This document shows positions 15,285 to 30,695 of a stretch of 64,000 nucleotides of DNA, piece after piece. How positions within the stretch are numbered: the first letter of the stretch is position 1; each line of letters begins with the position of its first letter. The notes under the pieces were generated by a model. The model was not told the origin of the DNA. It ran no database searches and was given only the letters and a program-made list of their open reading frames with translations. The stretch comes from Planktotalea frisia (GTDB lineage Bacteria > Pseudomonadota > Alphaproteobacteria > Rhodobacterales > Rhodobacteraceae), in the NCBI RefSeq assembly GCF_001890925.1, contig NZ_MLCB01000186.1, forward strand, positions 1-64,000, written 5' to 3'. The translations under genes and the position numbers were made by a program.

Positions 15285-16802
15285 ATGTCAGATGCTCCTC
15301 GCCGCTCCGGTCGTAAAGCCCGCTTGAAACAGCGCGCGGCACCGCCTGTTGTGAATCCTGCTCCCCCCGGTCAAATTGGTGGCCTTTATCGCCCTTTGAG
15401 CGAAAAGGACATGCACGACATTTACGCCACCGCCTTGCGTTTGCTTAGCGATTTAGGCATGGGCGAAGTCCCTAGACGGCTTTGGGATGATCTGATTTCG
15501 GCTGGCGCGTCTGACCTTGGAAATGGCCGCATTGGTCTGCCCAACACACTGGTTGAGGATACGATTTCTGGAGCCGCGAAACGCTTTACGTTGCATGGCC
15601 GCGATCCTGCGCGTTCCATCGACGTCGGTGGCAAAAACGTTTACTTTGGTACTGGCGGCGCTGCGGTGAACACGTTGGATCTAGACACTGGGCTCTATCG
15701 TCCCTCGACCCTGCGTGATCTGCATGATTTCACCCGTCTGCAAGACACGCTCGACAATGTCGCCTGGTTCACGCGCTGCTGTATTGCGACGGATGTACCG
15801 GATCCTTTCGAACTCGATGTGACCACCGCCTATGCGCTGATGAAAAACACGAGCAAACCCGTCGCAACAGCATTCACACTCGCGCAACACGTTGATCCAA
15901 TTGTGAAAATGTTCGATATCGTGGCGGGTGGTGACGGTAAATTTGCGAGACAACCGTTCCTTAAAACCCACATCAGCCCTGTGATTTCCCCGATGCGCTT
16001 TGGCGAGGATGCGGTGGATGTGGTTTACAAATGCATCGAACATAATATCCCTATGTCTTGCATCACCGCCGCACAGGCGGGCGCAACAGCACCTGCCACT
16101 TTGGCTGGCTTTTTAGCGCAATCGCTTGCCGAAACCTTGGCGAGTTTGGTGATGGTGAACGTCATTTCGCCAGGCTTTCCTATGATTTTTTCTAATTGGC
16201 CTTTGGTCATTGATCTACGCAGTGGCGCGTTTGCAGGCGGCGGTGGCGAAACAACCGTCCTTAACGCCGCCTCAGCGCAACTCTCTAACTGGCTCGGCTT
16301 GCCCTCTGGTGTGGCGTGTTCGATGACCGACGCCAAAGCCATCGATGCGCAATACGGCGTCGAAAAAGGAATGACGTCGCTCGCAGCGGCCCTCGCGGGC
16401 GGCAATTTAATCTATGAGAGTTCGGGCATGACCGCCGCGCTACTTGGCGCGAGTTTCGAAGCGTTTGTCTTGGATGACGATATGCACGCGATGACCTACC
16501 GCGCGTTACGTGGCATCGGGGTCAGCGAAGAAAACCTCGGCTATGATGCGATTTGCGAGGCGATTTTGGGCGATGGTCATTTCCTTGGATCAGGCCAAAC
16601 CCACGCAGCGATGGAACGTGATTACCACTACCCCAAACTCGCGGATCGCGAACAACCGCGTACTTGGGCAGAAGCGGGTGCGCAGGATGCTTGGAGCCGC
16701 GCAAACACCCGTGCACGCGCAATTTTAGAAGATCACCATCCGAATTATTTAAGCGCGGAACAGGACCAACAGATCAGGGCAATCTTCAACGTGCAAGACT
16801 AG
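15285..16802 (+). CDS. MttB/MtgB-family (COG5598) methyltransferase, without pyrrolysine
   Basis: The 505-residue protein belongs to the trimethylamine methyltransferase superfamily, a TIM-barrel that moves methyl groups from quaternary or tertiary amines to a corrinoid protein. The reading frame has no internal TAG, so it is of the non-pyrrolysine class, whose known members act on glycine betaine, proline betaine or carnitine. A basic, Pro-rich N-terminus (about 40 residues) precedes the barrel. The segment GGETTVLNAASAQLSNWLG near 325 and the closing HHPNYLS are family features. No corrinoid protein is encoded next to it. Its stop overlaps the opposing ThDP enzyme gene by CTAG. Confidence 0.88.
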   Translation: MSDAPRRSGRKARLKQRAAPPVVNPAPPGQIGGLYRPLSEKDMHDIYATALRLLSDLGMGEVPRRLWDDLISAGASDLGNGRIGLPNTLVEDTISGAAKRFTLHGRDPARSIDVGGKNVYFGTGGAAVNTLDLDTGLYRPSTLRDLHDFTRLQDTLDNVAWFTRCCIATDVPDPFELDVTTAYALMKNTSKPVATAFTLAQHVDPIVKMFDIVAGGDGKFARQPFLKTHISPVISPMRFGEDAVDVVYKCIEHNIPMSCITAAQAGATAPATLAGFLAQSLAETLASLVMVNVISPGFPMIFSNWPLVIDLRSGAFAGGGGETTVLNAASAQLSNWLGLPSGVACSMTDAKAIDAQYGVEKGMTSLAAALAGGNLIYESSGMTAALLGASFEAFVLDDDMHAMTYRALRGIGVSEENLGYDAICEAILGDGHFLGSGQTHAAMERDYHYPKLADREQPRTWAEAGAQDAWSRANTRARAILEDHHPNYLSAEQDQQIRAIFNVQD

Positions 16803-18460
16803 CCACTTTTCGCCAGCCACTTTCCAGGCGCGATCAGGTTGGTGTCCTGCATCACTTCGATCAAATTGATCCCACCGCGCGCACGTGCATCCCTGAGCGC
16901 GGGCTTGAATTCATCCACGTTTTCAACTCGAACAGCATACGCTCCGAAGGAACGCGCAAAGTCACAGAAATCAGGGTTGATCATCTCCGTACCTGACACA
17001 CGGCCCGGAAATTCGCGTTCCTGATGCGCACGGATCGTACCGTATCGCGCGTTATTGACTACGATCACGGTCAGGCGCAGATCGTGTTGCGCGGCTGTCG
17101 CAAGCTCTTGACAGGTCATCATAAAACACCCGTCTCCAGCTATAGCATAGACCTCGCGTTCGGGCGCACTGACCGCTGCGGCGACACCGGCGGGCAGGCC
17201 GTATCCCATTGAGCCAGAGGTGGGCGCAAGCTGTGATCCAGCGCTGCGATATTTATAGAAACGATGCAGCCATGCAGCGTAATTGCCTGCTCCATTGCAC
17301 AAGATAGCGTCGTCGGGCAGCGCTTCGTTCAGGTGTGCAAAGATGGGCGCGAGCGGATCATCAGCGACGGCTTCGGGCGATATGTAACTCTCGAACCTTC
17401 GGCGCAATTCTTGAGTGCGCATGCTGAAATCTGCCTCTGCGATTGGATCCCAATCCGCCATTGCCGCACAAAAACTCTCCATATCCGCCGCAAGCCCAAG
17501 GGCGGGCTCATAGACGCGACCGAGCTCTTCTGGCTGCGGGAATACATGCACCAGATCTTGCTCGATCACAGGTGGTTTGAGCCATGTATACCCCTGCGTC
17601 GTCATTTCACCCAACCGCGGACCAATCGCGAGCAGCAGGTCCGTTTCGGCCAAAGCCTCTTTGAGATACGGCGTTGGGCCGACACTGAAATGACCCACAT
17701 AATTTGGATGATTGTTATTCATCAACGCTTGGCATCGCAGAGAGACCGTTACGGGCAGCCCTTGCTTTTGAGCAAAGCTTTCAAGGGCATTTATGCCCTT
17801 CTCGGTCCAACCACCGCCGCCTGCCATGATCAGTGGTTTTTTCGCTGACGCTAACCGCTCTCGCAACTCGCCCATTGCATCTACGCTAGGTTGATATCGC
17901 GGCGCAGTCACTTTGCGTGGGGCTTTTGGAACGGCAATGTCTTCATAGAGCATGTCCTCCGGTAGCGCCAAAACTACAGGGCCGGGACGCCCTGACAAAG
18001 CCACGCGATAAGCCCTCGAAATATATTCCTGAAGGCGCGAAGGGTCATCAATTTCGGCGACCCATTTGGCGACTTGACCAAACATGCGACGGTAGTCAAG
18101 CTCTTGAAAAGCCTCACGCTCTACCATTTCACGCGCCACTTGACCGATGAACATAATCATCGGGGTGCTATCTTGATAGGCCACATGCAAACCCGCGCTT
18201 GCGTTCGTCGCCCCGGGGCCACGCGTGACCATGCAAATACCGGCTCGCCCCGTCAATTTAGCATGCGCATCCGCAGCCATCGCAGCCCCACCTTCCTGAC
18301 GACAGGTGATAAAGGCGATCTCGTCCTCGCGCTCATAGAGTGCATCTAAAACAGGCAAATAGCTCTCACCGGGTACGCCAAAGACATGGGTGCTGCCCTG
18401 CGCCACCAAAAGATCCACAAGATGATCCGCCGCGCGGCGTGTGTTTGCTTGAGAGGTCAT
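16799..18460 (-). CDS. Thiamine-diphosphate enzyme, acetolactate-synthase-like
   Basis: The 553-residue protein has the three ThDP-enzyme domains. The N-terminal PYR domain carries the catalytic glutamate in GVPGESYLPVL near residue 29. The central domain has the FAD/ADP-fold remnant (KKPLIMAGGGGWTEKG near 210). The C-terminal PP domain has the ThDP motif GDGCFMMTCQELATA with the closing VVNN near 440-470. It lacks an adjacent regulatory subunit (ilvN), and ilv genes are not nearby, so it is more likely a catabolic relative such as a sulfoacetaldehyde, glyoxylate or benzoylformate-type enzyme than the biosynthetic IlvB. The substrate is unknown. Confidence 0.85.
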   Translation of the reverse strand: MTSQANTRRAADHLVDLLVAQGSTHVFGVPGESYLPVLDALYEREDEIAFITCRQEGGAAMAADAHAKLTGRAGICMVTRGPGATNASAGLHVAYQDSTPMIMFIGQVAREMVEREAFQELDYRRMFGQVAKWVAEIDDPSRLQEYISRAYRVALSGRPGPVVLALPEDMLYEDIAVPKAPRKVTAPRYQPSVDAMGELRERLASAKKPLIMAGGGGWTEKGINALESFAQKQGLPVTVSLRCQALMNNNHPNYVGHFSVGPTPYLKEALAETDLLLAIGPRLGEMTTQGYTWLKPPVIEQDLVHVFPQPEELGRVYEPALGLAADMESFCAAMADWDPIAEADFSMRTQELRRRFESYISPEAVADDPLAPIFAHLNEALPDDAILCNGAGNYAAWLHRFYKYRSAGSQLAPTSGSMGYGLPAGVAAAVSAPEREVYAIAGDGCFMMTCQELATAAQHDLRLTVIVVNNARYGTIRAHQEREFPGRVSGTEMINPDFCDFARSFGAYAVRVENVDEFKPALRDARARGGINLIEVMQDTNLIAPGKWLAKSG

Positions 18461-23043: not shown

Positions 23044-23754
23044 CTATGTTTTGTGCGTCTCAAAGAACCGCGCGATGCTCTGTCCATAGGTCTGCGTATC
23101 AGCTTTCACCAACATCGATGCACGCGCGGCATCACCGACACCGACAGGCAGTTTGGGCGCATATTCCTCGATCAAAGCACTCATAAAAGCATGGCTCATC
23201 TCTGGATGATTTTGCGTCGTGAAGACCTTATTTTCAATGTGAAACCCTGTGATCGCGCAGGCCTCTGATACGCTCAGAATCTCTGCGCCATCAGGTAAAC
23301 CCGTCACCGCCTCAACGTGCGCGGCGTATTGCGCGAAGGGGCTAGGAAGCTGCGACATCCAAGCGACCTGTTTGCACACCTCAGAATGCGCAACACCAAA
23401 GACCCAACCTGCTGGATTTGCCTCGACCGTTCCACCTAGTGCGAGTGCAATCGCTTGATGACCGTAACATGCGCCAAACATCGGAATGCGCGCGGCGTAA
23501 ATCTCGCGGATCAGATCGAGCAACCGTGCAACCCATGGATCAGTGTCATGCACCGACGCGGGACTACCGGTGATCATAACACCATCAAACGCATCAATGT
23601 CATCGGGGAACACATCGTCCTTTACCGAAAACGAAGTCACCTGCCATTCCGGGCGCACCAAATGGACCAAATCCGCAAACTTCTCGCCATCTTTCGGATG
23701 CCTTTGTGCAAATTCACTTTCATCCGTGTTGGTCATCAAAACCGCGAGCTGCAT
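23044..23754 (-). CDS. Class I glutamine amidotransferase / gamma-glutamyl hydrolase-like protein
   Basis: The 236-residue single-domain protein has an intact GATase-1 triad: C96 in FGACYGHQAIA, H183 and E185 in NHPEM. It belongs to the stand-alone GMP-synthase-glutaminase-like group, which lacks a fused synthase. Such enzymes release glutamate from glutamine or from gamma-glutamyl amides. It faces the cytochrome P450 gene across 69 bases and the glutamine-synthetase-like gene follows that, so a gamma-glutamylation cycle is a reasonable hypothesis: the ligase adds glutamate and this enzyme removes it. PuuD has the same role in putrescine use, but its sequence motif differs. Confidence 0.85.
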   Translation of the reverse strand: MQLAVLMTNTDESEFAQRHPKDGEKFADLVHLVRPEWQVTSFSVKDDVFPDDIDAFDGVMITGSPASVHDTDPWVARLLDLIREIYAARIPMFGACYGHQAIALALGGTVEANPAGWVFGVAHSEVCKQVAWMSQLPSPFAQYAAHVEAVTGLPDGAEILSVSEACAITGFHIENKVFTTQNHPEMSHAFMSALIEEYAPKLPVGVGDAARASMLVKADTQTYGQSIARFFETHKT

Positions 23755-23787
23755 GAAAGGGCTTTCCTTTTGAAGTCATCTATTTAT

Positions 23788-23811
23788 GGTTTTGAAACCT
23801 AGAGCAAAACC
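23788..23811. promoter_or_regulatory. Inverted repeat in the divergent amidotransferase/P450 promoter region
   Basis: GGTTTTGAAACC (23788-23799) is a 10-of-12 palindrome, and a second copy of the right arm in the form AAAACC ends at 23811. It lies in the middle of the 69-base gap between two divergent start codons. It would suit a repressor controlling both genes; no regulator gene is adjacent. Confidence 0.35.
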
Positions 23812-23823
23812 AAGGCCAACGAA

Positions 23824-25083
23824 ATGACGATCTGGACGCCCACTGACGATGGATTTGCTGACCTGACCAGCCACGACACGTTTATGAATGGCGCGCCGCA
23901 CAACACCTTCGCACGGTTGCGCCGCGATGACCCTGTAAGTTGGACAGAATGGGGCGGTGGTAAAGGGTTTTGGTCGATTACGCGTTACGACGACATTCTA
24001 GAAATGAACCGCAACACAAAAGTGTTTTCTTCGGCCCAAGGCATCCGGATGGAGGATCAAAGTTACGAGGAATACCTCGCACGGCGCACCTTTCAAGAGA
24101 CCGATCCGCCCGAGCATATGCAAATGCGGATCAAACTGGCGAAGGCGTTTTCCAAAGGGGTCATTGAGCAATTTGAAGAGGATCTGCGCGCGATCAGCAC
24201 TGATATTCTCGACGAGGTTCTGCAAAACGAAAGCTTTGATGCAACCAAGACCATCGCGCGCGAATTGCCAATGCGCATGCTGGGCCGCATCCTTGGAACA
24301 CCCGACGAGGACCTACCATGGCTCGTAGAAAAGGGCGACGCGTTGATCGCCAATACGGACCCTGATTTCACCGCTCATGTGATGGACAAAATGAGCACGG
24401 ATGAATTTCGCATGATGCCGTTCAACTCGCCCGCTGGTGCAGAGCTATATGCCTACGCCAAGGATCTGATGGAGAAGAAAAACGCCAGCGGCGAAACCGA
24501 CGGCATCCTGCATTTGATCTTGCAACCCAGCCCCGATGGCAGCGTGATTTCCGAGACCGAATTTCGCAACTTCTTTTGCCTGCTTGTAGCCGCTGGCAAT
24601 GACACAACGCGCTACTCTATCTCGGCAGGCATGCAGGCGATGTGCCATCAGCCCGAACTGCTTGGCCAAATGAAAGAGGGCGGCGCGATTTGGGACACGA
24701 TGGCAGATGAAGTCATTCGTTGGGCCACGCCCGCGCTCTATTTTCGTCGCACCGCCACGCAAGACCATGAGATGCACGGCAAAACCATCCGCGAGGGCGA
24801 CAAGGTGCTCTACTGGTTCGCCTCTGGCAATCGCGACGAGAGCTATTTCACCGACCCTATGCGCGTTGATCTGATGCGCAATCCGAACAAGCATCTCGCC
24901 TTTGGCTTGGGCGGCCCGCATCTGTGCCTTGGCATGTGGCTTGCGCGTTTAGAGGTCACCGTTTTGTTTCAGGAACTCAGCAAACGCATCAGCCATATAG
25001 AAGCTGATGGAGATCAAAAATTCCTCCGCTCGAACTTTGTTGGTGGGATCAAATCATTACCAGTGCGCATCAAGCGCGCCTGA
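23824..25083 (+). CDS. Cytochrome P450
   Basis: The 419-residue soluble bacterial P450 has all core motifs. The I helix oxygen-binding segment is AAGNDTT at 256-262, the ExxR pair is E296/R299, and the haem loop FGLGGPHLCLG at 360-370 has C368 as the thiolate ligand. There is no signal peptide or membrane anchor. It needs a ferredoxin and reductase, neither of which is encoded in the window. The gene is followed after 14 bases by the glutamine-synthetase-like gene, with which it is probably cotranscribed. In look it is nearer to CYP families acting on aliphatic or sterol-like substrates than to CYP105, but the substrate is unknown. Confidence 0.94.
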   Translation: MTIWTPTDDGFADLTSHDTFMNGAPHNTFARLRRDDPVSWTEWGGGKGFWSITRYDDILEMNRNTKVFSSAQGIRMEDQSYEEYLARRTFQETDPPEHMQMRIKLAKAFSKGVIEQFEEDLRAISTDILDEVLQNESFDATKTIARELPMRMLGRILGTPDEDLPWLVEKGDALIANTDPDFTAHVMDKMSTDEFRMMPFNSPAGAELYAYAKDLMEKKNASGETDGILHLILQPSPDGSVISETEFRNFFCLLVAAGNDTTRYSISAGMQAMCHQPELLGQMKEGGAIWDTMADEVIRWATPALYFRRTATQDHEMHGKTIREGDKVLYWFASGNRDESYFTDPMRVDLMRNPNKHLAFGLGGPHLCLGMWLARLEVTVLFQELSKRISHIEADGDQKFLRSNFVGGIKSLPVRIKRA

Positions 25084-25097
25084 CAGGGAGAGACGAC

Positions 25098-26387
25098 ATG
25101 AAAGATAGATTGCGCGCGGTGTTTTGTGATCACCTGAGCATTATGCGGGGCAAATACCTGCCAAATTCCAAGATCGGCGACCATGACACGCGCTTTTGTC
25201 AATCCACCTTTGGCGTGCACTACGACAAGGATCTGCTGCCCTCTCCCGGTTCCATGATGATGGAAGGTCTCCCAGATATGGAGCTGCGCTGGAGCGCAGA
25301 TGACATCCGTCCTTGCTGGGAAAATGGCACGCAAATCGTGCTGGGCGATCTTTACGACGCCGCTGGCACGCCTTTGGCGATGTGTCCCCGCGGTGCGTTG
25401 AAACGCGCAGTTGCAGCTTGGGAAGCGAAAGGGCTAACCCCAAAAGTCGGGATCGAGTTAGAGGCATTTGCCTTTATCCACAACGACGAGGGCAAACTGG
25501 TTCCCTACGACAGCCTTGGCGGCGTGGTCTATGGAACAGGTCCGTTCACCGATCCGCGAGGTTTCAACGATGCAATCTGGGATGTGGCCGAAGAGCTTGG
25601 CTTCAAGCTCGACATGATCACAGCAGAATATGACAGCCCTCAATTCGAATATACGCTCACTTTTGATGACGCGCTGAGCGCTGTCGATGACATCATTCTC
25701 TTTCGTCAAATGGCGCGCGAAGTGGCGTTGAGCGAAGGGGTGATCCTCAGCTTTATGCCAAAACCAATCGTCGAAGCAGGTGGTTGCGGGATGCACATCA
25801 ACTTCTCCTTCACAGACAAGGACGGCAACAACGCTGTCGCGTCTGGCGACAAAGGTGGGCCAGATCACTTAAACGATCTCGCACGCGGCTGCCTTGCGGG
25901 GCTTTTGCATCATCACAAGGGGCTTGCGGGTTTGATTGCGCCCACGGCGAACTCTTATGATCGTTTGCAGCCTGCCTCCCTTTCAGGTCACTGGCAAAAC
26001 TGGGGCGGCGATCACCGTAATGTCACCACACGCGTCAGCACAGAGGGCGGTGCAAAGGCGCGGCTAGAGCACCGTATGGCGGATGCTTCGTCTAATCCCT
26101 ATACAGCTGTCGCTGCGGTCTTGCAGGCAGCTTTGCTTGGGTTTGAGAACGGCTATGAGTTGCAGGCGATGGAAACCGGTGACGGGTTTGAGCAAACGGA
26201 TGCTACCGTCGGCGCGGCCTCTGATCTCGCTGGTGCGATCGCGGATTTGAGCAGCGATACGGTGCTGTCAGCGGCTGTTGGCCAAGGCCTTGTGGACAAC
26301 CATGTCTTCATGAAAGAGGCGGAGGTCGAAAAGACCAAAGACCTCACGCCAGAGCAGTTGCGCGATTTCTACATCTTTTACATCTAA
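25098..26387 (+). CDS. Glutamine-synthetase-like gamma-glutamyl ligase
   Basis: The 429-residue protein has the beta-grasp N-terminus (MRGKYLPNSKI near residue 16) and the GS catalytic barrel: VGIELEAFAF near 118 and AEYDSPQFEY near 177 for the metal-binding glutamates, GGCGMHINFSF near 220 with the ATP/ammonia-site H, and LEHRMADASSNPYTAVAAVL near 320. It is shorter than GlnA-I and belongs to the GlnT/PuuA/GmaS-like group, enzymes that couple glutamate to an amine or amide to nitrogen metabolism. Its position after a P450 suggests a xenobiotic- or alkylamine-derived substrate. A strong GGGAGAGAC site precedes its ATG. The stop overlaps the ABC1 gene stop by CTAA. Confidence 0.9.
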   Translation: MKDRLRAVFCDHLSIMRGKYLPNSKIGDHDTRFCQSTFGVHYDKDLLPSPGSMMMEGLPDMELRWSADDIRPCWENGTQIVLGDLYDAAGTPLAMCPRGALKRAVAAWEAKGLTPKVGIELEAFAFIHNDEGKLVPYDSLGGVVYGTGPFTDPRGFNDAIWDVAEELGFKLDMITAEYDSPQFEYTLTFDDALSAVDDIILFRQMAREVALSEGVILSFMPKPIVEAGGCGMHINFSFTDKDGNNAVASGDKGGPDHLNDLARGCLAGLLHHHKGLAGLIAPTANSYDRLQPASLSGHWQNWGGDHRNVTTRVSTEGGAKARLEHRMADASSNPYTAVAAVLQAALLGFENGYELQAMETGDGFEQTDATVGAASDLAGAIADLSSDTVLSAAVGQGLVDNHVFMKEAEVEKTKDLTPEQLRDFYIFYI

Positions 26388-28220: not shown

Positions 28221-28270
28221 TATTTCTGCACAAACTGGAACGGTAGTATTGCTTACAGAGAGTGCTAAAC

Positions 28271-29896
28271 ATGGTCGCAGTAAGATACGAAACAGCTTTC
28301 AAGCTATACCCTTATGAAAAAGTCGCGGCCCAAACAGGTGCCGTGCAGCGACACCCTGTCGTCATCGTCGGCGGCGGGCCTGTTGGCCTCGCGCTTGCGC
28401 TTGATCTTGGGAAAAAGGGCACCCCTGCCCTCGTGCTGGACGATCATGATGGCGCGGGTTTAGGCAGCAAGGCGATCTGTTTCGCCAAGCGCACGCTTGA
28501 TATCGCGTCCCGACTAGGCGCGAGCGCGTCAATGGTCGACAAAGGCGTGGTTTGGAACGTTGGCAAGGTTTTTCACGGTGACGGCAATCTCTTTAAATTC
28601 GATTTGCTTCCCGAAAGTGGCCATCGCAATCCAGCGTTCATCAATCTTCAGCAACCCTACTTTGAGCGGTTCCTCGTCGATGAAATCCGCAATGCGCAAA
28701 ATGCCGGCGCACCCATCGAAATTCGCGGGCGCAACAGCGTCTCGTCGATGACTCAGCATAGCGATTACACATCGCTCGACATTGAAACGCCAGACGGGCC
28801 TTATCAGCTTGAAGCGGACTATCTGATCGCCTGTGACGGCGCGCGCTCTAGCATTCGCGACATGATGGGCCTGTCTTTTGATGGGCGTGTGTTCGAGGAC
28901 AACTTCCTGATCGCAGACGTGGAAATGAAGGCTGATTTCCCGACTGAGCGTTGGTTCTGGTTCGAACCTCCCTTCAAAAACAGCGGACAATCCGCACTTT
29001 TGCACAAACAGCCCGACGATATTTGGCGCATTGATTTTCAACTGGGCTGGGACATTGATCGCGACAAAGAGCTTGATCCCGAGCGCATTCGTGCACGCGT
29101 TGACGCCATGCTTTCGAGCCAAGCAGGCAGCGTGCCAGAATATGAACTGCATTGGACTTCGATCTACACGTTCCAATGCCGCCGCATGGATACATTTCGC
29201 CACGGCTCTGTTTTGTTTGCAGGCGATAGTGCGCATCAAGTGTCACCGTTCGGTGCACGCGGGGCCAATTCCGGCGTGCAGGACGCGGAGAACCTCGCGT
29301 GGAAATTAGACCTCGTCCTCAAAGGGTTGGCGGATGACAGCTTGCTCGACACATATGCAACCGAACGTGAATTTGGCGCAGATGAGAACATTCTAAATTC
29401 TTCGCGCGCGACAGATTTTATGACGCCGAAATCCAAGGTTTCCAAGACCTTCCGCAATGCGGTTCTCGACCTTGCTGGGCGTCACGCCTTTGCGCGTCCT
29501 ATCGTCAATTCCGGTCGCCTTTCTGTGCCTTGTACCTATGATGGTTTTGACCTTTTCGGCCCTGATGCCCTCAGCGGTCCCAAAGTCACGCGTCCCGGTG
29601 CCACCTGCCCGGATGCGCCTGTCAAAGAGGGCTATCTGCTGGATCATTTGAACAGCGGGTTTCACATTCTAAGCATTGGCGAAGACGCATCAAAGCCTGT
29701 CACGTCCAATGGGATCACTGCAAATGTCGTCCAGATTTGCACGCCTTCTGAGGAATTACGCACGCGTTATCTTGGCGATGAACCTCAGGCCGTTTATCTC
29801 ATCCGACCCGATCAACATGTGGTTGCGCGTTGGCCTTCTTTCGATGAAAAGGCAGTCGCAGACGCACTAAGTAATTCTATCGGAAAGGGCGCATAA
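28271..29896 (+). CDS. FAD-dependent aromatic monooxygenase
   Basis: The 541-residue flavoprotein of the PHBH fold has the FAD GXGXXG site VVIVGGGPVGLALALDLG at about 31-48, the DG motif YLIACDGARSSIRDMMG near 190 and the second FAD site FAGDSAHQVSPFGARGANSG near 320. It is long for the family because of a C-terminal thioredoxin-like domain (about 430-541) as in phenol and MhpA-type hydroxylases. ATG at 28271 is preferred to GTG at 28262 because GAGAG lies nine bases upstream. It hydroxylates an aromatic ring using NAD(P)H and O2. It overlaps the DUF2783 gene by one base (stop TAA, ATG). Confidence 0.93.
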   Translation: MVAVRYETAFKLYPYEKVAAQTGAVQRHPVVIVGGGPVGLALALDLGKKGTPALVLDDHDGAGLGSKAICFAKRTLDIASRLGASASMVDKGVVWNVGKVFHGDGNLFKFDLLPESGHRNPAFINLQQPYFERFLVDEIRNAQNAGAPIEIRGRNSVSSMTQHSDYTSLDIETPDGPYQLEADYLIACDGARSSIRDMMGLSFDGRVFEDNFLIADVEMKADFPTERWFWFEPPFKNSGQSALLHKQPDDIWRIDFQLGWDIDRDKELDPERIRARVDAMLSSQAGSVPEYELHWTSIYTFQCRRMDTFRHGSVLFAGDSAHQVSPFGARGANSGVQDAENLAWKLDLVLKGLADDSLLDTYATEREFGADENILNSSRATDFMTPKSKVSKTFRNAVLDLAGRHAFARPIVNSGRLSVPCTYDGFDLFGPDALSGPKVTRPGATCPDAPVKEGYLLDHLNSGFHILSIGEDASKPVTSNGITANVVQICTPSEELRTRYLGDEPQAVYLIRPDQHVVARWPSFDEKAVADALSNSIGKGA

Positions 29897-30078
29897 TGTC
29901 ATTGATCCTAGAGCCCAACATCCCTGATCCGGATGGCTTTTACGATGAACTTTTGCGTGCGCACGAAGGGCTGACAGACGACGAGAGCGAAGCTTTCAAT
30001 GCGCGGTTGATCCTGACGCTGTGCAATCACATCGGGGATCGCGAGATCCTGCGCGCGGCTTTGGAGGCTGCAAAATGA
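29896..30078 (+). CDS. DUF2783 family small protein
   Basis: This 60-residue acidic protein (DPDGFYDELLRAHEGL, then SEAFNARLILTLCNHIGDREIL) matches my memory of DUF2783, which occurs next to aromatic monooxygenase genes in alphaproteobacteria. It has no membrane segment or cysteines other than one. Its start overlaps the monooxygenase stop and its stop overlaps the maiA start (ATGA), so it is translationally coupled on both sides. It may be a subunit or accessory factor of the monooxygenase; this is inference. Confidence 0.85.
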   Translation: MSLILEPNIPDPDGFYDELLRAHEGLTDDESEAFNARLILTLCNHIGDREILRAALEAAK

Positions 30079-30695
30079 GCGAAACTGTTCTTTGGGATTA
30101 TCCGAAATCCTCGGCCAGCTATCGTCTTCGCATTGCTTTGAATTTAGCAGGTTTGGAGTACCGCTTAGAAACTGTTGATCTTCTCACTGGCGCGCATCGC
30201 TCGGACGCTCACCTTGCTCGCAATCCCCAAGGATTTGTGCCTGTCCTTGATATCGACGGGCATCGCTTCACTCAGTCTTTGGCGATCCTCGATTATCTCG
30301 ACGCGACGCGCGATATGGGACTGTTGCCAAGCGAGCCTGCGGATCGCGCTAAGGTCACGGCGCTCGCGCATTGTATCGCTGTGGATCTACATCCTGTTTG
30401 CAATCTGTCGGTCATGCGCCACGCGACAGGCGGCGAAGAGCCAGTTCGCACCGAGTGGATGAGACATTTCATTCGGCCCGGTTTGGAAGCTTTCGAAGTT
30501 CTGCTCGCCGGCTTTGAGCAAACCCCATTCGCCACAGGTTCCACCCCTAATCTCGCAGATATTTGCTTGATCCCACAGCTCTATAACGCCAATCGTTGGG
30601 GTGTTGAGTACAGCGATCTCTCTCGGATCACAGCAATTGAGAAAGCCTGCGCCGCGCACGACGCTTTCAAAGCGGCGCATCCCGATATGGTTTAA
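30075..30695 (+). CDS. maiA: Maleylacetoacetate/maleylpyruvate isomerase, GST zeta class
   Basis: The 206-residue protein starts MSETVLWDYPKSSASYR; the SSxSxR motif of zeta-class glutathione transferases (SSASYRLRIALN near residue 12) is present, with the thioredoxin fold up to residue 80 and the all-helical C-terminal domain. NPQGFVPVLDIDG near 53 and ADRAKV / CDLHPVCNL near 95-115 are zeta hallmarks. It converts a cis ring-cleavage product to its trans isomer in homogentisate or gentisate catabolism. The start at 30075 fits better than an earlier ATG in the same frame at 30021, which would sit inside DUF2783. The stop overlaps the PhyH gene (TTAA). Confidence 0.9.
   Translation: MSETVLWDYPKSSASYRLRIALNLAGLEYRLETVDLLTGAHRSDAHLARNPQGFVPVLDIDGHRFTQSLAILDYLDATRDMGLLPSEPADRAKVTALAHCIAVDLHPVCNLSVMRHATGGEEPVRTEWMRHFIRPGLEAFEVLLAGFEQTPFATGSTPNLADICLIPQLYNANRWGVEYSDLSRITAIEKACAAHDAFKAAHPDMV

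Follow-up and report, generated by a model that had tools for sequence, protein, structure and literature searches.

What do a glutamine-synthetase-like protein, a cytochrome P450 and a glutamine amidotransferase accomplish together when their genes lie side by side on a bacterial chromosome? The question is raised by a 64,000-nucleotide stretch of Planktotalea frisia DNA (positions 1 to 64,000 of contig NZ_MLCB01000186.1, assembly GCF_001890925.1; the window), in which genes for a class I glutamine amidotransferase (GATase), a P450 and a glutamine synthetase (GS)-like protein form a compact group, called the module below. The current annotation of such trios (e.g., in Ruegeria sp. TM1040) goes no further than the labels "glutamine synthetase family protein", "cytochrome P450" and "type 1 glutamine amidotransferase". 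The analysis described here offers a concrete function: the module probably hydroxylates a substrate that is carried as its gamma-glutamyl amide and feeds the product into homoprotocatechuate cleavage.

Conservation of the Three-Gene Neighborhood

A search with the window P450 covered 295 genomes from the same family, sampled at one genome per genus. Some P450 match was found in 273 genomes and an orthologue, defined by at least 50% identity to the window P450, in 57 (one of them, G166, a fragment over 224 residues). The surroundings of the P450 gene were read in 55 of the 57 genomes (4 to 22 kb each, mostly about 20 kb), and all neighbor counts over these 55 loci omit G095 and G166. A GS gene was present in 54 of the 55 loci and adjoined the P450 gene in 53, and the GATase gene was also found in 53. 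The grouping of P450, GS, and GATase genes is far beyond chance. The neighborhood that the preliminary description of the window had reported from a single sequence is conserved in relatives and recurs in many marine bacteria of the Roseobacter type, and an adjacency specific to this strain is ruled out by the conservation across 57 of 295 family genomes. Of the two genomes outside the count, G095 has a short contig that encodes both the P450 and, close by, a 76% identical GS, and the GS search gave no match in G166, which is 71% complete.

Two recurrent layouts were observed: the GATase gene divergent from P450-GS, as in the window, and GATase-P450-GS in one direction (e.g., L049-L054). In a few loci (L048, L123, and L124), the GATase gene comes after the GS gene. 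Protein distances of the P450 correlate with those of the GS (r = 0.88) and the GATase (r = 0.87), and none of 2000 shuffles gave values as high; within the main clade (43 loci) the correlations are 0.64 and 0.70. This test used 47 loci after removal of short proteins and identical P450s and included some of the loci L056-L073, which in part duplicate genomes already sampled and otherwise serve only as examples outside the 55. A class-level sample of 384 other genomes, a few of them from the same family, contained the P450 (E 1e-80 or better) in 10 genomes with 53-68% identity, none of them of the same family. The GS gene adjoins the P450 gene in 8 of the 10; the remaining two P450 genes lie at contig ends. 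One of these two genomes (83% and 67% complete) had no hit in the GS search, and the other had a 51% identical GS fragment on another contig.

Sequence Features of the Three Proteins

The three open reading frames and their families, as given in the preliminary description, were confirmed by Pfam matches over the curated cut-offs (77 bits for GATase, 66 bits for p450 and 242 bits for Gln-synt_C), and no NCBIfam model matched by the three proteins reaches its cut-off. The best NCBIfam match of the GS-like protein is the GlnT/type III model (TIGR03105, 191 bits, cut-off 469.6), and the PuuA model NF045547 (178.8 bits, cut-off 650) and the GlnA model TIGR00653 (157.5 bits, cut-off 429.15) are likewise missed. 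In E. coli GlnA numbering, residues E129, E131, E212, E220, H269, R321, R339, R344, E357, and R359 are kept in the window GS. The GlnA residues D50, Y179, and E327 are replaced by C, V, and L in the alignment, in which the D50 column falls within a loosely aligned loop, and positions N264 and H271 are also changed. D50, Y179, and the flap residue E327 are taken here to form the ammonium site. The window GS has the residue pattern of the GoaS kind, with ATP, metal, and glutamate residues kept and the residues on the ammonium side of GS replaced. PMC11335346 describes for organic-amine ligases the loss of GS catalytic residues, Asp50' included, to hydrophobic residues or loops, and for NpaA1, compared by this description only, a Val in the amine pocket; the flap residue is named Glu357 there, a position that the window GS retains.

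A tree of 28 ligases placed the module ligases together with those of a Novosphingobium plasmid, of family f37 and of genome G636 in one clade (support 100/100). Outside it lie E. coli GlnA and PuuA, two IpuC proteins of strain TC1, the GlnT of an N-methylglutamate-type cluster, and the Streptomyces and Embleya ligases; AtdA1, TdnQ, NpaA1, and the IpuC of strain KIE171 were not among the 28 rows. The grouping with ordinary GlnA that the preliminary description had set as the contrary outcome was not seen: the clade is separate and the ammonium-site residues are lost. Because it belongs to a clade of its own, keeps the ATP, metal, and glutamate residues and has lost the ammonium site, the window GS is most likely a gamma-glutamyl-amide ligase.

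The GATase carries the Cys-His-Glu triad of class I enzymes intact at the three positions noted earlier (C96, H183, and E185). It has 236 residues, among which no synthase domain was matched. By sequence, the solved structure nearest to it is Gamma-glutamyl peptidase 1 (E = 1.6e-19), a likeness that would suit hydrolysis of a gamma-glutamyl bond, and GMP synthase chains are among the next closest. The P450 was assigned to its class by the p450 match, the ExxR motif (EVIR, position 296), the acid-alcohol helix (AGNDTT, position 257) and the heme Cys loop FGLGGPHLCLG, which can be read from the translation; the preliminary description had noted all core motifs. The loop has eleven residues, one above the usual ten, and was missed by the ten-residue pattern. 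The closest solved relatives are CYP125-, CYP124-, and CYP268-type chains, which are little informative on the substrate. A ligase-P450-hydrolase carrier logic is very likely.

Association with Homoprotocatechuate Genes

HpaD was found over its cut-off in 92 of the 295 family genomes (95 contain a match), in 50 of the 57 genomes with the module and in 42 of the 238 without it. The full distribution is 50 genomes with both, 7 with the module only, 42 with HpaD only, and 196 with neither (Fisher P = 1.7e-23). Among the seven module genomes without HpaD, four contain HpaE over its cut-off and two of the other three are <90% complete. The control gene hmgA, counted at E 1e-60 in 199 genomes (194 over the cut-off), is present in 54 of the 57 module genomes and 145 of the 238 others (odds ratio 11.5). 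Among hmgA-positive genomes the module remains associated with HpaD (48/6/40/105 in the same order, odds ratio 21, P = 2.8e-15), and among HpaD-positive genomes it is not associated with hmgA (48/2/40/2, odds ratio 1.2, P = 1). The link between the module and HpaD exceeds general aromatic gene content. A decarboxylase homologue (E 1e-100 or better) occurs in 52 of the 57 module genomes versus 86 of the 238 others. In the 50 genomes that carry both genes, P450 and HpaD lie at most 15 kb apart in 10; random placement in a genome of 4 Mb predicts 0.375. It is likely that the module feeds homoprotocatechuate.

HpaB is the usual maker of homoprotocatechuate from 4-hydroxyphenylacetate. It was found over its cut-off in 28 of the 295 genomes (29 contain a match), in 7 of the 50 genomes with the module and HpaD, and in 8 of the 42 with HpaD and no module. 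Since HpaB is rare in HpaD-positive genomes, most Hpa pathways in these genomes seem to need another feeder than HpaB, and the module seems not to be the only one. As a separate observation, 77 of the 92 HpaD-positive genomes lack HpaB over the cut-off and 34 of the 77 also lack the module, so these 34 genomes seem to need a further feeder of homoprotocatechuate.

Genomic Settings of the Module

The most frequent neighbors in the 55 loci are a class III aminotransferase (29), TctC (28), a GntR regulator (28), an IclR regulator (27), TctA (27), a 2Fe-2S ferredoxin (24, mostly directly 3' of the GS gene), an aldehyde dehydrogenase (21), an UPF0261/Tm-1 protein (14), and an aromatic-amino-acid decarboxylase (9). 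HpaD is found in 8 loci, at least one of HpaD, E, F, H, and I in 16, any aromatic-catabolic gene in 22, and a transaminase or an aromatic gene in 40. A single strand of locus L046 (genome G059) reads transaminase-HpaF-HpaE-HpaD-HpaG-HpaH-P450-GS-ferredoxin-Tct transporter, with HpaE and HpaD over the NCBIfam cut-offs, and a single strand of L051 and L054 reads GATase-P450-GS-HpaF-HpaE-HpaD-decarboxylase-HpaG-HpaH. In the window genome, the end of contig C184 carries a transaminase gene (on the other strand), genes for an aldehyde dehydrogenase and a MarR-type protein, HpaF, E, and D, a decarboxylase gene, and HpaG, H, and I. The closest solved relative of this transaminase is an omega-transaminase (E = 7e-126) and that of the decarboxylase a DOPA decarboxylase (E = 9e-102). 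The decarboxylases scanned here pass no NCBIfam cut-off and are named by closeness to solved structures. A His and a loop Tyr separate decarboxylases from aldehyde synthases; the enzyme of the window genome keeps both residues, aligned with the human decarboxylase, and an aldehyde-synthase reading was rejected.

Related clusters occur in other lineages. In family f37, a single strand of locus L188 encodes an HpaE-like aldehyde dehydrogenase (533 bits against a cut-off of 638), a dioxygenase of the LigB fold (130 bits against 316 for its best model, HpaD_Fe), FAH-type and ADC-type proteins, a decarboxylase, P450, GS, ferredoxin, and a reductase-type flavoprotein. The decarboxylase gene stands just before the P450 gene and its product is very near a solved DOPA decarboxylase (E = 7e-223); an amino-acid permease is encoded nearby. 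Locus L191 has the same look by eye, without a decarboxylase gene at that place. A Streptomyces canus plasmid carries genes for a 34% identical GS and a 39% identical P450 within about 6 kb of genes for a LigB dioxygenase (about 4 kb from the GS gene), an HpaE-like aldehyde dehydrogenase and a FAH-family protein, with an APC permease further along, and on a Novosphingobium plasmid P450 and GS have as a neighbor a LigB protein that is recorded as catechol 1,2-dioxygenase. Separately, an acetoacetate-decarboxylase-fold protein is encoded near the LigB gene of L188 (12060-12857; best NCBIfam match MppR, below the cut-off), and proteins deposited under the acetoacetate-decarboxylase family name also occur in the Novosphingobium and Streptomyces clusters.

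Proposed Route and Alternative Explanations

In the proposed route, the aromatic-amino-acid decarboxylase that recurs in Hpa clusters would supply amines from tyrosine or DOPA. The GS-like ligase would use ATP to couple the amine of a substrate derived from tyrosine, most likely tyramine, to the gamma-carboxyl group of glutamate, and the P450, fed by the 2Fe-2S ferredoxin, would hydroxylate the ring of the gamma-glutamyl amide, which takes tyramine to the level of dopamine. The GATase-fold protein would then hydrolyze the amide to glutamate and the catechol amine, and the amine transaminase and aldehyde dehydrogenase would yield homoprotocatechuate for meta-cleavage by the Hpa enzymes. Two considerations favor ring hydroxylation: the need for a product that can enter homoprotocatechuate, and the aromatic type of the decarboxylase. 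The chances that the ring of tyramine or tyrosine is hydroxylated are about even. The fuller proposal, that the P450 acts on gamma-glutamyl-tyramine (or gamma-glutamyl-tyrosine) and thereby opens an HpaBC-independent entry to homoprotocatechuate in Roseobacter-type and some other lineages, is made tentatively, with chances slightly short of even. We know of no earlier P450 ring hydroxylase of a gamma-glutamyl amide. The gamma-glutamyl carrier logic of the preliminary description stands as the best reading; its example of N-dealkylation is not supported, as the homoprotocatechuate genes, the aromatic-amino-acid decarboxylase, and the amine transaminase point rather to ring hydroxylation, and nothing was found in favor of N-dealkylation as the leading case.

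A number of observations weigh against the proposed route, which is inferred, in every reaction, in their order, and in the substrate, from the observed gene content, conservation, residues, linkage, and co-occurrence. Plain vertical descent alone could yield the distance correlations, and the co-occurrence statistics are not corrected for the species tree, although the sample holds one genome per genus. The looseness of the alignment around D50 weakens the ammonium-site argument. The only GS found in the genome of L055 (G145) is 47% identical and 25 kb away, and no GATase gene was found in the 20 kb read of L046 or on the 4.1 kb contig of L114, where the P450 gene lies near one end. The control gene hmgA is itself enriched in module genomes. 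Forty-two genomes carry HpaD without the module, and HpaB is about equally rare in HpaD genomes with and without the module, so that a simple replacement of HpaBC by the module was rejected. Neither a transaminase nor an aromatic gene was found in 15 of the 55 loci (some of them short contigs), and other aromatic pathways adjoin the module too (FAD hydroxylase in 7, Fah in 5, HmgA in 3, and PaaA in 3 loci, vs. HpaD in 8). Each of the scanned HpaF, G, H, and I proteins matches best the model of the corresponding name but scores below its cut-off, and the LigB and HpaE-like proteins encoded in f37 and Streptomyces also fall short of the cut-offs. In the window genome, the module and the hpa genes are on separate contigs and the search for a close ferredoxin gave 41% identity at best. 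The stretches read around the four f37 loci contain no GATase gene and no matching transaminase gene.

Four alternative explanations were considered. The substrate could be the amino acid, with gamma-glutamyl-tyrosine converted to gamma-glutamyl-DOPA and DOPA released and then decarboxylated. The position of the DOPA-decarboxylase-like gene just before the P450 gene in L188 and the frequency of decarboxylase homologues in module genomes favor such a route, but it is unlikely: C, V, and L at the ammonium-site positions of the ligase are not basic and would suit an amine better than a carboxylate, and the organic-amide ligases described in PMC11335346 act on amines. It is less likely again that, with the rest of the route unchanged, the role of the P450 is to take off an O-methyl or N-alkyl group (e.g., from 3-methoxytyramine) without ring hydroxylation. 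O- and N-dealkylation is chemistry open to P450s and the product would likewise enter homoprotocatechuate; a weak argument on the other side is that no C1 gene is among the annotated recurrent neighbor clusters, and no directed search for C1 genes was made.

A slightly lower probability still is given to the glutamylation of some other amine, with the hpa link arising from generalist genomes that collect catabolic genes. The 15 loci without an aromatic gene or transaminase, the many unrelated flanks, and the enrichment of hmgA would fit this explanation. It does not readily account for an HpaD link that holds among hmgA-positive genomes when the hmgA link vanishes among HpaD-positive ones, for the proximity of P450 and HpaD in 10 of 50 genomes, or for the recurrence of Hpa or LigB-type settings beyond the family. 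Ordinary nitrogen assimilation, in which the ligase would be a spare GlnA beside unrelated genes, has the Gln-synt_C fold in its favor and is highly improbable: ordinary GlnA was rejected on the loss of D50, Y179, and E327, on scores below the GlnA, GlnT, and PuuA model cut-offs, and on the separate clade, and the trio is conserved.

If the proposed route is correct, it is one of the means by which bacteria that have homoprotocatechuate genes and lack HpaB use tyrosine-derived amines, and the gamma-glutamyl-carrier strategy reaches beyond aliphatic amines and anilines to P450 ring hydroxylation. It would also caution against reading GS-like genes near P450 genes as nitrogen assimilation.

Window Features and Additional Clusters

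The features of the window are listed in table 1, which includes two context genes outside the core. Homologues of the FAD-dependent hydroxylase lie close to the module in L062, L076, L081, L082, L083, L088, and L092. The P450 and GS genes are separated by 14 bases. The shared gap of 69 bases described earlier is present, and the palindrome reported within it could not be upheld: the sequence is at best the 12-mer GGTTTTGAAACC with a central mismatch, spotted by eye, and a scan of the gap revealed no palindrome of at least 14 bases with up to two mismatched positions. A palindromic operator was rejected since even L056, which has a 94% identical P450, does not preserve the 12-mer.

Table 1. 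Positions of the module and of nearby context genes in the window.
Feature	Coordinates	Strand	Evidence
Class I glutamine amidotransferase-fold protein, predicted gamma-glutamyl-amide hydrolase	23044..23754	-	Pfam GATase, C96/H183/E185
Divergent intergenic region, 69 bases	23755..23823	.	near-palindromic 12-mer not conserved
Cytochrome P450, predicted hydroxylase of gamma-glutamylated aromatic amine/amino acid	23824..25083	+	Pfam p450, motifs
Glutamine-synthetase-fold gamma-glutamyl-amide ligase (predicted)	25098..26387	+	Pfam Gln-synt_C, residues, tree
FAD-dependent aromatic hydroxylase (PRK08132 subfamily), context, not core	28262..29896	+	736.9 bits, cut-off 416
Maleylacetoacetate isomerase, context, not core	30021..30695	+	TIGR01262 218.3 bits, cut-off 171

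Elsewhere in the window (15285-18460), a gene for a trimethylamine methyltransferase-family (MTTB) protein is convergent with a gene for a thiamine-diphosphate enzyme (PRK08199). Contig C138 of the same genome (L108:8324-13024) carries GS, GATase, GS, and FAD oxidoreductase genes, a second gamma-glutamyl-amine-like cluster; the best NCBIfam match of the oxidoreductase is L-pipecolate oxidase, below the cut-off, and the cluster represents the classic oxidase version. On a plasmid of Sagittula stellata E-37 (L174, 5920-9227), a distinct GS-GATase-P450 cassette, whose P450 is 39% identical to the window P450, lies near genes for a salicylyl-CoA 5-hydroxylase and a ring-hydroxylating dioxygenase. 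Another possible ligase-P450-hydrolase cassette is located on Mesorhizobium loti pML2037 (L173, 6020-13422), with genes for a P450, a 2Fe-2S protein, an APC permease, a GS, and a gamma-glutamyl-GABA-hydrolase-family protein.

Comparison with Known Systems

The HpaBC-HpaDEFGHI pathway shares with the genomes studied here the meta-cleavage genes for homoprotocatechuate, which lie beside the module or occur with it, and differs in its entry step, as only 7 of the 50 genomes with the module and HpaD contain HpaB over the cut-off. The GmaS/GlnT type III ligase of the N-methylglutamate pathway has the GS fold and provides the best NCBIfam match of the window ligase, yet the match is below the cut-off and the two belong to different branches. 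In the E. coli PuuA-PuuB-PuuC-PuuD pathway an amine is glutamylated, oxidized, and hydrolyzed, as is proposed for the module. The oxidase PuuB takes the place of the P450, PuuA lies outside the module ligase clade, and PuuD is only 25% identical to the window GATase over 99 residues.

AtdA1, TdnQ, and NpaA1 (the GoaS group) are, according to PMC11335346, GS-fold ligases of aromatic amines that have lost GS catalytic residues and are followed by an oxygenase. Compared by description, they differ from the module in that a dioxygenase follows and the amine is on the ring, whereas here a P450 follows and the amine is probably on the side chain.

The closest likeness in strategy is found in the Ipu pathway of Pseudomonas sp. 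KIE171 and Paenarthrobacter aurescens TC1, which has a GS-like ligase, a P450 with ferredoxin and reductase, and an amidotransferase-type hydrolase. According to PMC6776027, isopropylamine is glutamylated by IpuC in Arthrobacter aurescens TC1 and the amide is oxidized by a multicomponent P450 system, with release of the product ascribed to a postulated amidotransferase; the Ipu genes are seen in the plasmid records of P. aurescens TC1. The preliminary description had considered the exchange of the oxidase for a P450 to be new, and this claim is not supported given the Ipu pathway as described there. The combination of ligase, P450, and hydrolase is known for isopropylamine, and the module appears to employ it in a variant that has not been described; among the publications listed, a search at the level of titles and the beginnings of abstracts, with subscription literature mostly outside its scope, found none on the present gene combination. 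Both systems group a ligase, a P450, and a GATase-type hydrolase in one cluster. They differ in sequence and substrate: the TC1 P450 is only 25% identical to the window P450, the TC1 GATase adjoining it aligns to the window GATase over only 77 residues with 27% identity, TC1 IpuC groups elsewhere in the tree, and the Ipu substrate is aliphatic. As a second GATase of the TC1 region is 32% identical to the window GATase over 176 residues, the hydrolase may be less foreign to Ipu than the P450 is. The module seems to represent the same strategy assembled largely from other branches, working like the Ipu pathway without being a member of it by ligase sequence.

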